From: a virus
DNA length: 34,685 nt
Reading direction: 5' to 3' (one strand)
IMG/VR virus record: IMGVR_UViG_3300032299_000745
Span: 1-34,685 of that record
This document shows positions 2,896-34,685 of this stretch, piece by piece. The notes under the pieces are model-generated. The model was not told where the DNA came from and did no database searches. It saw only the letters and a program-made list of their open reading frames with translations. Position 1 is the first letter of the stretch, and each line of letters starts with the position of its first letter. The translations under genes were made by a program, and so were the position numbers.

Positions 2896-3108
2896 ATGAA
2901 AAAGAAACAGACAGCAGTAGACTGGTTACAAGAATGTTTGTTAACGCATTTTAGTCACGAACAAATAATGCAATTTGAAGGATTATTTCAACAAGCAAAA
3001 GAAATGGAAAAGCAACAGATAATTAATGCTTATTGGGATGGTGGCGAAGATATGCCAATGATAAGTAAACAATGTGAACAATACTACAACGAAAAATTTG
3101 AAGCATGA
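2896..3108 (+). CDS. Conserved Bacteroidota-phage hypothetical protein, 70 aa
   Basis: The protein begins MKKKQTAVDWL and ends with the block QAKEMEKQQIINAYWDGG...EQYYNEKFEA. I recognise this as a recurring small protein of Bacteroidota phages and prophages, of unknown function. It is mostly helical by appearance with no membrane segment. It is first in a three-gene operon and its stop overlaps the next start (ATGA, 3105-3108). A possible leaderless promoter precedes it. Confidence 0.8.
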   Translation: MKKKQTAVDWLQECLLTHFSHEQIMQFEGLFQQAKEMEKQQIINAYWDGGEDMPMISKQCEQYYNEKFEA

Positions 3109-3287
3109 TTGAAGAATTAATACAAGACTTCATTGCTCGTGAAGTACCCGAAGCAGTTGAGCATAAGCACCGCGAGATGATAAGCGAGTTGTCGATAATG
3201 TACTTTATGGATAAGTTCGCAGTACTTGACCACCTCAACCAATGCAATGAGCATTTAGATGAAATGATAAAAGCAACAACGTATTAA
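3105..3287 (+). CDS. Small hypothetical protein, 60 aa
   Basis: This 60-residue acidic, helical protein contains a His-rich patch (EAVEHKHREM). It is translationally coupled to the upstream gene by an ATGA overlap and followed after one base by the next start. No family is recognised and no function is proposed. Confidence 0.65.
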   Translation: MIEELIQDFIAREVPEAVEHKHREMISELSIMYFMDKFAVLDHLNQCNEHLDEMIKATTY

Positions 3288-3288
3288 A

Positions 3289-3576
3289 ATGAGAACACAC
3301 AAAGAAGCCCTCGAAGCAATAGCAACTGACTTTTTAAATCAGAACGCAGATGCAGTAGGCAATGAGAATAAGCCTAATTACTCAAACAGAGATTTTATGA
3401 ACGCTGTCATCATTTTTCAGACCGCATTGATGGATAAGATGTTTGACAATCAAGAGTTCGATGATATGAGCGTGTTTGACCGTATGAAAATGTGCGAGAG
3501 TTGCGGACTTGAACTAAAAAAGTTGATACACACTTATACTGGGTTAGACACGCATAAGTTTGAGGATTTTTTATAA
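3289..3576 (+). CDS. Hypothetical protein, 95 aa
   Basis: This 95-residue protein starts one base after the stop of the 60-aa gene. It appears all-helical, with acidic surface segments (DNQEFDDMSVFDRMKMCESCG) and a single CxxC (Cys65-Cys68 region). Bacteroidota phages carry similar genes next to the QYYNEKF-type gene, but I know no function. Its last 6 bp overlap the convergent 54-aa gene on the minus strand. No terminator of good quality is visible between them. Confidence 0.65.
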   Translation: MRTHKEALEAIATDFLNQNADAVGNENKPNYSNRDFMNAVIIFQTALMDKMFDNQEFDDMSVFDRMKMCESCGLELKKLIHTYTGLDTHKFEDFL

Positions 3577-32505: not shown

Positions 32506-32874
32506 ATGAAAATAGCACCAAAAGATAGCAAGTTCACCGACATGGGGATTGAACTTTTAAGAGTTAAGATGATGCAGCCCGAACGAAGCATGAAAGAGAT
32601 TGGCGAATCGTTTGGGTTGAACCGATATGAAACCGAGACGGCATCCGCTACCGCCCAGTATCATTTGGGTATAGTGTTGAAATCGCAGCCGAATAAAGGT
32701 AATAATTTACCGTACATAAATGTTACGGAAGCACCACCTGTCGCAGTAAATTTTGGTGATATACCCGACTTGTATTTAGCACCCGAACCCGAATGGATGA
32801 AGTCAGTAAACTTTAACAAGTTGGAAAAGACTAACGATGATAAAGCGTTTAATTACATGATGAAAAAAATTTAA
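32506..32874 (+). CDS. Helix-turn-helix-like putative regulator, 122 aa
   Basis: The start is ATG 32506 (an upstream TTG lies in the promoter). The 122-residue protein contains RSMKEIGESFGLNRYETE, which fits a helix-turn-helix, then a Pro-rich central stretch and a helical end. Its gene diverges from the early operon across a short promoter region, the arrangement of a phage switch regulator, so repression or activation of the early promoter is a reasonable inference. The stop codon TAA is part of the TTTAAC core that opens attC-like site A. Confidence 0.65.
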   Translation: MKIAPKDSKFTDMGIELLRVKMMQPERSMKEIGESFGLNRYETETASATAQYHLGIVLKSQPNKGNNLPYINVTEAPPVAVNFGDIPDLYLAPEPEWMKSVNFNKLEKTNDDKAFNYMMKKI

Positions 32875-33000
32875 CGGCATCTGCTTTGCGAAGTGGCGGT
32901 TTTGGAACACCATAGCTTCAATATAGCACTACTGTTGATTAGAATTACAAGGGTTCAAATTAGCACTTCACCCGCCATTTTGCAAAGCAAGTGTTAGCGG
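32872..33000 (+). other. attC-like recombination site A
   Basis: Three paired arms form a dyad: TAAC (32872-32875) with GTTA (32993-32996), GCTTTGC (32883-32889) with GCAAAGC (32982-32988), and TGGCGG (32894-32899) with CCGCCA (32972-32977). A 72-nt variable centre lies between. The outer AAC/GTT cores and two inner arms match integron attC architecture. The 5' core TTTAAC is not matched by any upstream GTTAAA, so it may be the left border of the array. Confidence 0.75.
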
Positions 33001-33046
33001 TTCGGGCTTCTCCGCTTTTAGAAGTCCAAAGTTTAATAACAAGAAA

Positions 33047-33310
33047 ATGAAATTAAGAAAAGTAATGTTCAACAAATGGATACCAAGAGTTGACGAAAAA
33101 ACAGAATTAGGAACTAAGGCAAAAGAAGGAACAAACTGCTGGGAAAAAGACTTTCCAAATGCAGGTTTATTTCATCAATGGGCAAGTGCCTATGAAGAAA
33201 GTAGCGAAGGTTTTGGAAATTACACAGTTGCACTTGTCGAAATGACTGACGGAACTATTGAACAAGTTTTACCGAGTAGTTTAAAGTTTGTCGATTTGCC
33301 GTCTTATTAG
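33047..33310 (+). CDS. Cassette-borne conserved hypothetical protein, 87 aa
   Basis: The 87-residue protein begins MKLRKVMFNKWIPRV and includes GTNCWEKDFPNAGLFHQWA and GNYTVALVEMTDGTIEQVLP. I recognise this as a recurring small protein of Bacteroidota phages and environmental sequences, with no function known. It fills cassette 2 (32994-33444, 451 bp), whose ends are GTTAGCGG and CCGCTAAC. There is no Shine-Dalgarno. Confidence 0.75.
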   Translation: MKLRKVMFNKWIPRVDEKTELGTKAKEGTNCWEKDFPNAGLFHQWASAYEESSEGFGNYTVALVEMTDGTIEQVLPSSLKFVDLPSY

Positions 33311-33315
33311 CCTGA

Positions 33316-33451
33316 CCGCTAACGTTCCGATTATTTGCGTTCGGTGGGGCGTTACACCACCAAAGTTAATTTGAAACACTAAATTTTAATAATATGCAAA
33401 ACGATGATTTGAAAAACAACACCCCCACTGACGCAAATAATGTGTTAGCGG
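33316..33451 (+). other. attC-like recombination site B
   Basis: CCGCTAAC (33316-33323) pairs perfectly with GTTAGCGG (33444-33451). TTATTTGCGT (33331-33340) pairs with ACGCAAATAA (33431-33440). GGTGGGG (33343-33349) pairs closely with CCCCCAC (33422-33428). The 72-nt variable centre carries ATG 33394, from which the next ORF reads in frame through the right arm. Confidence 0.85.
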
Positions 33452-33606
33452 TTGTTTTAATTGAGCAGTTAGATAAATGGATAGAAGATTGTCAAGCACA
33501 AGCAGACGTTTTCTTTGAAAGAGGTATGACTGTTTCTGAAACAAGTTCATTAGCTATGAAAATTGCTTACATGAATGTTAAGACGTTGGTAAAAAATAAC
33601 CGCTAA
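33394..33606 (+). CDS. Tiny cassette ORF starting inside attC-like site B, 70 aa
   Basis: The 70-residue frame starts at ATG 33394 in the variable centre of site B, runs through its right arm and ends at TAA inside CCGCTAAC of site C (33600-33607). Cassette 3 itself covers only 33445-33675 (231 bp) and supplies residues from about 18 onwards (LAVVLIEQLDKWIEDC...). A GTG at 33442-33444 straddles the junction. Thus the start of translation appears to be provided by the previous cassette's attC. The protein is helical with no domain recognised. It could instead start at ATG 33526 (26 aa). Confidence 0.55.
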   Translation: MQNDDLKNNTPTDANNVLAVVLIEQLDKWIEDCQAQADVFFERGMTVSETSSLAMKIAYMNVKTLVKNNR

Positions 33607-33682
33607 CGGGTTCGGGCTTGGCGAAGTTTGCGAAGCGTTGGCTTGTGCGGTCGGGCAAATTGCGCCAAGCCCGTGTTATGTG
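33600..33682 (+). other. attC-like recombination site C
   Basis: CCGCTAAC (33600-33607) opens the site, and GTTATGTG (33675-33682) closes it, which belongs to the next cassette. The inner arm CGGGCTTGGCG (33613-33623) pairs perfectly with CGCCAAGCCCG (33663-33673), 11 bp. The 83-bp length is typical of attC sites. Confidence 0.85.
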
Positions 33683-33710
33683 TCTGTAATTTTTTTAAAC
33701 TTTTTGTGCG

Positions 33711-34361
33711 ATGGCAATAGAACTATATAATGAAGATAATATGAAATTGATGGCAAGATACCCTGACAAGTATTTTGACATAGCAATCGTTGACCCACCT
33801 TATGGAATTGATATAAATAATCAATCGCAAGGTAAAGGAGGCGGAGTTGCTAAAAAGATTGATTATACTAAATACGATTGGGATAAGCAAGCACCCGACA
33901 AGGCTTACTTTGATGAACTTATGAGAGTATCTAAAAATCAAATCATTTGGGGAGCAAATCACTTTATTGAAAAGCTACCGATAAATTCAAGTTGCTGGAT
34001 TGTTTGGGATAAGGAAAATGGAGAAACTGATTTTGCTGATTGCGAATTAGCTTGGACAAGTTTTAAGACTGCAGTTAGAAAATTCAAATGGAAATGGGCA
34101 GGAATGTTACAGCAAAATATGAGCAATAAACAGCAACGAATACACCCGACTGAAAAGCCAATACAGCTTTATCAATGGCTTTTAAAGAAATATGCAAAGG
34201 AAGGTGATTTGATTTTAGATACTCACTTGGGGAGTGCTTCTATTGCGATTGCTTGCCATAGGGAAAAATACAGCCTTGTTGGTTGCGAATTAGTAACTGA
34301 ATATTATGAGAAAGGACTTAAACGATTGCAAAATGAACAAGCACAAACGGTATTATTTTGA
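33711..34361 (+). CDS. DNA methyltransferase (beta-type N6/N4), 216 aa
   Basis: The 216-residue protein has catalytic motif IV DPPY (residues 28-31), the HPTEKP motif (145-150) and the AdoMet-binding motif LDTHLGSAS (Asp170), in the order of beta-class N6-adenine or N4-cytosine methyltransferases. It would methylate phage DNA, possibly to evade host restriction. No restriction partner is visible. It fills cassette 4 (33676-34472, 797 bp), bounded by GTTATGTG and CACATAAC. Confidence 0.92.
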   Translation: MAIELYNEDNMKLMARYPDKYFDIAIVDPPYGIDINNQSQGKGGGVAKKIDYTKYDWDKQAPDKAYFDELMRVSKNQIIWGANHFIEKLPINSSCWIVWDKENGETDFADCELAWTSFKTAVRKFKWKWAGMLQQNMSNKQQRIHPTEKPIQLYQWLLKKYAKEGDLILDTHLGSASIAIACHREKYSLVGCELVTEYYEKGLKRLQNEQAQTVLF

Positions 34362-34393
34362 AGCGGAGGAAAAAAAGTTTAAAAAAATTATTG

Positions 34394-34479
34394 CACATAA
34401 CGTTTTGCAGATAAGCGAAGGCACAAATAGCGTTGGCTTTAGCGAGGGATTTGGGCTTTTGCTTATGTGCTGTTATGCG
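34394..34479 (+). other. attC-like recombination site D
   Basis: CACATAAC (34394-34401) is the exact reverse complement of the 5' end of the same cassette (33675-33682). ATAAGC (34411-34416) pairs with GCTTAT (34461-34466) and continues with mismatches. The closing core GTTATGCG (34472-34479) belongs to the next cassette. The 86-bp length is typical. Confidence 0.85.
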
Positions 34480-34509
34480 AGGTGCTTTTAACAAATTAAA
34501 ATTAGAATT

Positions 34510-34685
34510 ATGAAGAAAAATTTATTAGTATCATTTTCAGGAGGCGAAACATCAGGATTTATGGCTCAATGGATTAAAAAACATTTAGAGGATAGCTATG
34601 ATAGAGTAGTTTATGTATTTGCCAATACAGGACTTGAAAATGAGCAGACTTTGGAATTTGTAGAACAATGCGATAACTATTGGAA
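34510..34685 (+). CDS. PP-loop (PAPS reductase-like) protein, 5' part; continues at 1
   Basis: The ORF starts at ATG 34510 (MKKNLLVSFSGGETSGFMAQ), giving the PP-loop SFSGGETSG at residues 8-16, which binds the ATP phosphates. It continues in frame past the contig end to the stop at 814-816 for 291 residues in all. Because the circle closes here, the 176 bases shown duplicate 1-116. See the entry at 1-816. Confidence 0.9.
   Translation, partial: MKKNLLVSFSGGETSGFMAQWIKKHLEDSYDRVVYVFANTGLENEQTLEFVEQCDNYW
34570..34685. repeat. Terminal overlap showing circularity (right copy)
   Basis: This is the exact second copy of bases 1-116. It lies inside the coding sequence of the PP-loop protein, which makes a functional direct terminal repeat unlikely and an assembly overlap more likely. 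Confidence 0.95.

Follow-up and report, generated by a model that had tools for sequence, protein, structure and literature searches.

A probable integron-type cassette exchange system of Bacteroidota phages, linked to a recombinase that lacks the IntI patch

Introduction

Integrons are the described systems closest to the locus analysed here. Their folded attC hairpins and their cassettes with self-matching cores have counterparts in the phage arrays reported below, and an attI-like sequence there is a candidate equivalent of the attI site adjoining a tyrosine recombinase gene. The differences are that the phage-linked recombinase lacks the IntI patch and belongs to another clade, that the cassette ORFs are reversed with respect to attC, and that the ORF-sense strand is the one that folds better. 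The solved structures closest to this recombinase are those of Xer proteins, which resolve chromosome dimers at dif and are not known for a role with cassette arrays. An atypical orientation of integrase and cassettes has also been described for the Treponema chromosomal integron (PMC3607928), although there intI occupies the array's 5' end and points toward attI, whereas here the recombinase gene is located at the 3' end of the cassette ORFs.

Phages have themselves been described as carriers of attC sites. Qi et al. (2023; PMC9892861) report integrons and CALINs in phages, among them, as in the phage studied here, integrase-less attC arrays with methyltransferase cassettes. They note divergent attC directions in Polaribacter phage P12002L and activity of IntI1 on its attC2, but not on attC1. 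In contrast to the present data, excerpts of that paper mention no cognate patch-less recombinase, attI-like site or reversed cassette phase; nor was a paper on a phage-encoded patch-less integron found among open-licence PMC papers. Beyond the presence of attC in phages, shown by these authors, a candidate enzyme and insertion site can now be named for one such pool. We consider it likely, from comparisons of sequence, that the phage analysed here is an integrase-less carrier of four cassettes belonging to an integron-type exchange system of Bacteroidota phages that is rich in DNA-modification genes.

Results

The window, i.e., the whole stretch of DNA analysed (IMGVR_UViG_3300032299_000745, 34,685 nt), is a circular phage contig in which positions 1 to 116 are repeated at 34570 to 34685, so that the last cassette continues across the contig join, as the first-pass annotation had proposed. 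It derives from a tailed phage, most likely of a Bacteroidota host, and no nucleotide relatives were found in INPHARED. A search of the whole window with the PF00589 profile gave no match to a tyrosine recombinase; the window is thus no complete integron, which would have the integrase in the same genome.

Sites were called throughout with a rule-based scorer (no covariance model) asking only for AAC, a stem and GTT. At a score of at least 16 on the ORF-sense strand, the whole window rendered exactly four matches, sites A to D, all of them in the array and with scores of 17.5 to 19.5. Two hundred Markov-1 copies of the window rendered 13 matches at that threshold in total (top score, 17.3; none of at least 17.4). 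All four sites show the attC-like layout of outer AAC/GTT cores and paired inner arms. The locus had previously been described as five consecutive genes, each followed by such a site (A to E). This holds for A to D; at E, the scan found no stem after CTCGCATAAC, the sequence folds no better than shuffles, and only the core AAC is present. There are four mobile units, not five, and we take the gene at 32506 to 32874 as a phage gene rather than a cassette.

This gene (plus strand, as are all the genes, sites and units that follow) encodes 122 aa immediately 5' of the array and ends in a stop codon that shares bases with the first core (ATTTAAC). Homologues occur in L002 (74%) and G099 (48%), neither of which has an array behind it. 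Site A (32873 to 32995; AAC...GTT; score, 19.3) provides the body of unit 1 (32876 to 33323), which continues with ORF2 (33047 to 33310; 87 aa, phrog_11000) and the closing core CCGCTAAC, its phase being deduced from the unit boundaries. ORF2 has distant homologues in Flavobacterium phages, and no plasmid relatives of it were found. Unit 2 (33324 to 33607) consists of the body of site B (33321 to 33446; score, 19.3), ORF3 (from 33394 or 33442, two candidate starts, to 33606) and, again, the closing core CCGCTAAC. The ATG at 33394 is in the loop of site B, in frame with ORF3; among sites of ~120 to 135 bp, a start codon in the loop was read in this example only. Unit 3 (33608 to 34401) comprises the body of site C (33605 to 33677; score, 19.5), ORF4 (33711 to 34361), which encodes a DNA N6/N4 methyltransferase of 216 aa (PF01555, 1.3e-15; phrog_67, 1.6e-41), and the closing core CACATAAC.

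Unit 4 is split by the contig join. Its first part (34402 to 34569, up to the 116-bp terminal repeat) contains the body of site D (34399 to 34474), which is of a homogeneous type, and the start of ORF5; the second (1 to 829, continuing from 34569) contains the rest of this ORF and the closing core CTCGCATAAC (820 to 829). ORF5, i.e., cassette 5, encodes a PAPS-reductase-like protein of 291 aa with its stop at 816 (PF01507, 3.2e-5; phrog_424, 4.8e-47). The last AAC of the array (827 to 829) is inside this closing core, and phage DNA lies beyond it: a right junction without an attC body (830 to 881), formerly called site E, and a phage gene (882 to 1046). In L002, a 91% identical homologue of the latter directly follows the homologue of the 32506 gene, with no array at the junction, so that this phage presents the empty site. 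G099, a more distant relative, has attC-like sites elsewhere in its genome.

On the ORF-sense strand, sites B, C and D folded better than shuffles (z of -4.4, -4.7 and -4.8, respectively), while A was weak (-1.4). Folding of the bottom strand had been put forward as the check on these sites. We rejected antisense-strand folding as a test of attC identity because the ORF-sense strand folds better, with -26.6 versus -23.9 kcal/mol for site B and -18.8 versus -8.6 kcal/mol for site D. By computed folding, the ORF-sense strand was the more stable in 98 of 110 phage sites. Hairpins that fold well and stand between co-directional genes could act as transcription terminators or as some other intergenic RNA element instead of as recombination sites. 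We regard this as extremely improbable, since it leaves the core self-match, the exact-ended cassette movement and the link to a recombinase, all described below, unexplained, and since the arms of the 110 sites have common spacer lengths and a wobble position suiting attC.

Two minor features of the sites were noted. A loop near CGTTTTAATG is common to short attC-like sites in L170 (2729 to 2772), L471 (P12002L, upstream of gp35), L165 and L083. In G035 (63.9 kb), attC-like sites are present in three separate clusters of one genome.

Within each unit, the closing core xxxTAAC pairs with the unit's own opening GTTAxxx, and the self-matches quoted at first pass for cassettes 2 to 5 are indeed present in the window. 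When a self-match was defined as reverse complementarity between the tetranucleotide behind GTT and the one ahead of AAC, opening and closing cores were partners in 69 of 97 distinct phage cassettes, compared to a mean of 6.8 and a maximum of 19 in 1000 shuffles. The match extends past the seven-base core to about ten bases. The self-match expected of integron cassettes is therefore a property of these units, and the earlier description of integron-type cassettes in an integrase-less phage is borne out by sites A to D, their cores and the lack of a PF00589 match in the window.

To establish the unit boundaries, we aligned 124 cassettes, taken from the window and from further viral contigs, to viral contigs. 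In 24 of 65 cassette-contig pairs (some of them reciprocal, 10 involving cassette 5, and L163 and L196 being the same contig), the match was limited on the left to the cassette plus the preceding attC body and ended on the right no more than 13 nt from the closing AAC. In 17 of the 24, it ended within 2 nt of this AAC; the other seven, all of cassette 5, ended at -10 to -13 or +11. Most of the remaining 41 pairs were copies of one locus in near-identical contigs. In one of the clearest cases, unit 2 of the window matched L235 (90.7%) from 124 nt upstream, including all of site B, to +1 past AAC. The match of unit 3 to L083 (95% at the nucleotide level) stopped at AAC. L239 matched L181, L202, L228 and L245 (98.5 to 99.4%) with ends at 0, and cassette 5 was found in G006, L163, L165 and L167 (94 to 96% at the nucleotide level) with ends at 0, 1 or 11.

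Many of these matches take in the upstream attC body and end at AAC, from which it follows that attC travels with the downstream ORF; in the contexts read, the DNA after AAC differs. The cassettes hence move as units with exact ends, most close matches stopping no more than one or two bases from AAC. The shared units do not have attC 3' of the ORF with exchange at the GTT core, as class 1 cassettes do. The phase read from these alignments is the opposite one: exchange would take place at the closing AAC, and attC would consequently be 5' of the ORF with which it travels. Viewed on the opposite strand, the arrangement corresponds to an integron in which the ORFs are inverted. The longest ORF was sense in 235 of 250 units and antisense in 13.

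Further evidence of movement came from near-identical contigs. L194, L195, L200 and L221, which by their names derive from different metagenomes, are 99.4 to 99.9% identical over 2.8 to 5.0 kb. L195 and L221 read ...GCCACTAAC|TACTCGACTTGCG, with nothing inserted at AAC, whereas between the AAC of GCCACTAAC and TACTCG there is an insert of ~0.19 kb in L194 and of ~1.6 kb in L200. We take these differences to mean that whole units were gained or lost at AAC. The proposal that the cassettes were acquired as units is in agreement with the empty site in L002 and with the different flanks of cassette 5 among other viral contigs; the five genes, far from always occurring together in the same order, are found separately elsewhere. 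L164 carries two copies, ~1 kb apart (1800 to 2090 and 2900 to 3300), of the cassette 5 end together with the DNA that follows.

The 80 longest cassette proteins of the set gave 11 N6_N4_Mtase and 2 Dam matches and one each to MT-A70, D12, Mom and PAPS reductase. A role of the cassettes in DNA modification and anti-restriction is probable. One 20-mer taken from site D was present in 75 IMG/VR viral contigs and in one bacterial genome, there outside any attC. A near-relative search of 84,980 bacterial and archaeal genomes gave no close relative of the cassette 5 protein; a bacterial source of this cassette or of the site-D type was accordingly set aside, as far as close or exact matches go. Some cassettes are common to recombinase-less phages and to phages with an array-linked recombinase (hereafter, platform recombinase), namely, L219/L317 (99.3%) and L193/L418 (92.1%); none of the window's own cassettes matched platform contigs. 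Such scans of the collections find close relatives only, and most contigs are metagenomic fragments.

Among viral records that either had such sites or were relatives of the window phage (99, i.e., 100 records minus the bacterial genome G051), PF00589 was strong in only 2, and in both the array immediately precedes the recombinase gene. With those two proteins alone as queries, nine loci were retrieved: arrays lie 0.2 to 0.6 kb 5' of the gene in seven, a site lies 3.1 kb 5' of it in one, and one is uninformative. From a wider search of viral contigs, the best-scoring 80 of 289 matches were kept and, with L316 and L317 added, 82 loci were scanned. Among the 69 of these 82 loci that have at least 600 bp upstream, 63 showed 1 to 11 upstream sites, all on the strand of the recombinase gene, and 6 showed no site by the rule-based scan; L312/L313 and L401/L402 are duplicates or near-duplicates. 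As a background, relatives of the window's terminase yielded 8 sites per Mb for an equal score. In most loci, the conserved attI-like sequence TAAC|TATTATATAT or a similar one is located just before the recombinase start, after the core of the last cassette. The recombinase and the sequence behind it are identical between L309 and L310, whose last cassettes differ, and the same is nearly true of L316 and L317.

By its position, a platform recombinase could be a lysogeny integrase that merely lies nearby, the arrays arising by homologous recombination between similar hairpins and ordinary phage mosaicism. Hairpins of the site-D type vary very little from phage to phage, and the genes of the window phage include one for an Erf-like annealing protein, as such a process would favour. 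However, the boundaries fall at AAC and not within the hairpins, the core self-match is far above that of shuffles, and the array-recombinase link recurs in those 63 loci across divergent sequences, which makes this explanation very unlikely. From the association with arrays, the platform recombinase looks like a candidate cassette mover that may act on attC. By eye, TAAC|TATTATATAT (L309 to L317, L398 to L470) resembles a dif half-site. In L445, from 6001 onwards, three more attC-like sites are present 3' of the recombinase on the same strand.

The distinct platform recombinases are 263 to 286 aa long and keep the catalytic residues. The IntI patch is absent in the seven that were aligned, and the scores of two members do not reach the TIGR02249 cut-off. 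A tree of 108 proteins separated a clade of 29 IntI proteins (100/100) from one of 40 phage proteins (92/95). The phage clade was nearest to the host protein L318 and then to XerA-like Bacteroidota proteins, with a joining branch (81/92) that is not strong. L318, which adjoins a helicase-like gene and has the same attI-like site, may be prophage-borne. Both in sequence and in fold, the nearest solved structures were those of archaeal XerA and Xer recombinases (5hxy, 4a8e), followed by IntI4 (2a3v).

Terminase genes were detected in 23 of 50 platform records (PF03237 in 16, phrog_6681 in 8), on contigs of up to 362 kb; the other 27 may be fragments or misclassified. G043, G006 and G055 contain terminase and portal genes together with 8 (main array), 5 and 10 sites, respectively, on the array strand, so genuine tailed phages carry platform recombinases. 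A related recombinase (E <= 1e-40) was present in 111 of 396 sampled Bacteroidota genomes. Host arrays were sampled in 18 regions, chosen before the scan, and 30 short loci. Around the 18 recombinases (194 kb) there were 22 sites, and 20 other 20-kb regions (400 kb) of seven of the same genomes gave none, which suggests that the system also exists outside phages, on host chromosomes. L362, L364 and L365 are N-extended XerA-like host recombinases with arrays on the opposite strand and, by eye, AAC|TTGTTTATATA-like junctions.

Discussion

On balance, we favour the view that Bacteroidota phages harbour a second lineage of integrons. It would have reversed cassettes and an attI-like site of its own, its recombinase would lack the patch, and DNA-modification and other genes would pass through it from phage to phage independently of IntI. 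The unit would consist of an attC-like hairpin, one ORF and a closing core pairing with its own opening core. It would be excised as a circle and re-enter at an AAC core to give AAC|unit|AAC. On the other strand, this would be the familiar G|TT integron exchange with the ORF reversed, which gives the cassette ORFs the same orientation as the neighbouring phage genes; the catalysis and the strand used are predictions, as is the circle. The enzyme is likely the XerA-like tyrosine recombinase without IntI patch that other phages encode beside AAC|TATTATATAT, and the window phage may receive it in trans, either during co-infection or from a copy in a prophage or in the host.

The first-pass annotation had seen in the window host cassettes placed by a host integron integrase in trans. 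This would mean canonical IntI acting on phage-borne attC, with the phage as a carrier of host integron cassettes. IntI proteins over the TIGR02249 cut-off are present in 105 of the 396 sampled Bacteroidota genomes, and IntI1 recombined attC2 of P12002L, a site of similar look (PMC9892861); canonical integrases are therefore possible movers. However, the recombinases linked to such arrays in phages are of the patch-less family and not IntI, and both the ORF orientation and the exchange core are reversed with respect to class 1 cassettes. Moreover, neither the site-D 20-mer nor the cassette 5 protein was found as a cassette in bacterial genomes by near-exact and close-relative scans. We consider host IntI an unlikely agent, and neither the host origin of the cassettes nor their placement by a host integrase was upheld. 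Canonical IntI loci of Bacteroidota were also rejected as a source of such sites, as they showed few attC-like sites, different by eye.

Should the second-lineage reading be correct, phages would own a gene-capture platform, the IntI patch would appear to be dispensable for cassette exchange, and a route for anti-restriction genes between unrelated phages would be explained. The origin of integrons also becomes testable in this respect, as the tree places the platform recombinases with XerA-like Bacteroidota proteins, apart from IntI. In the cultured phage P12002L, which carries similar-looking sites, two arrays end before the same AAC|AACGGATAAAAC.
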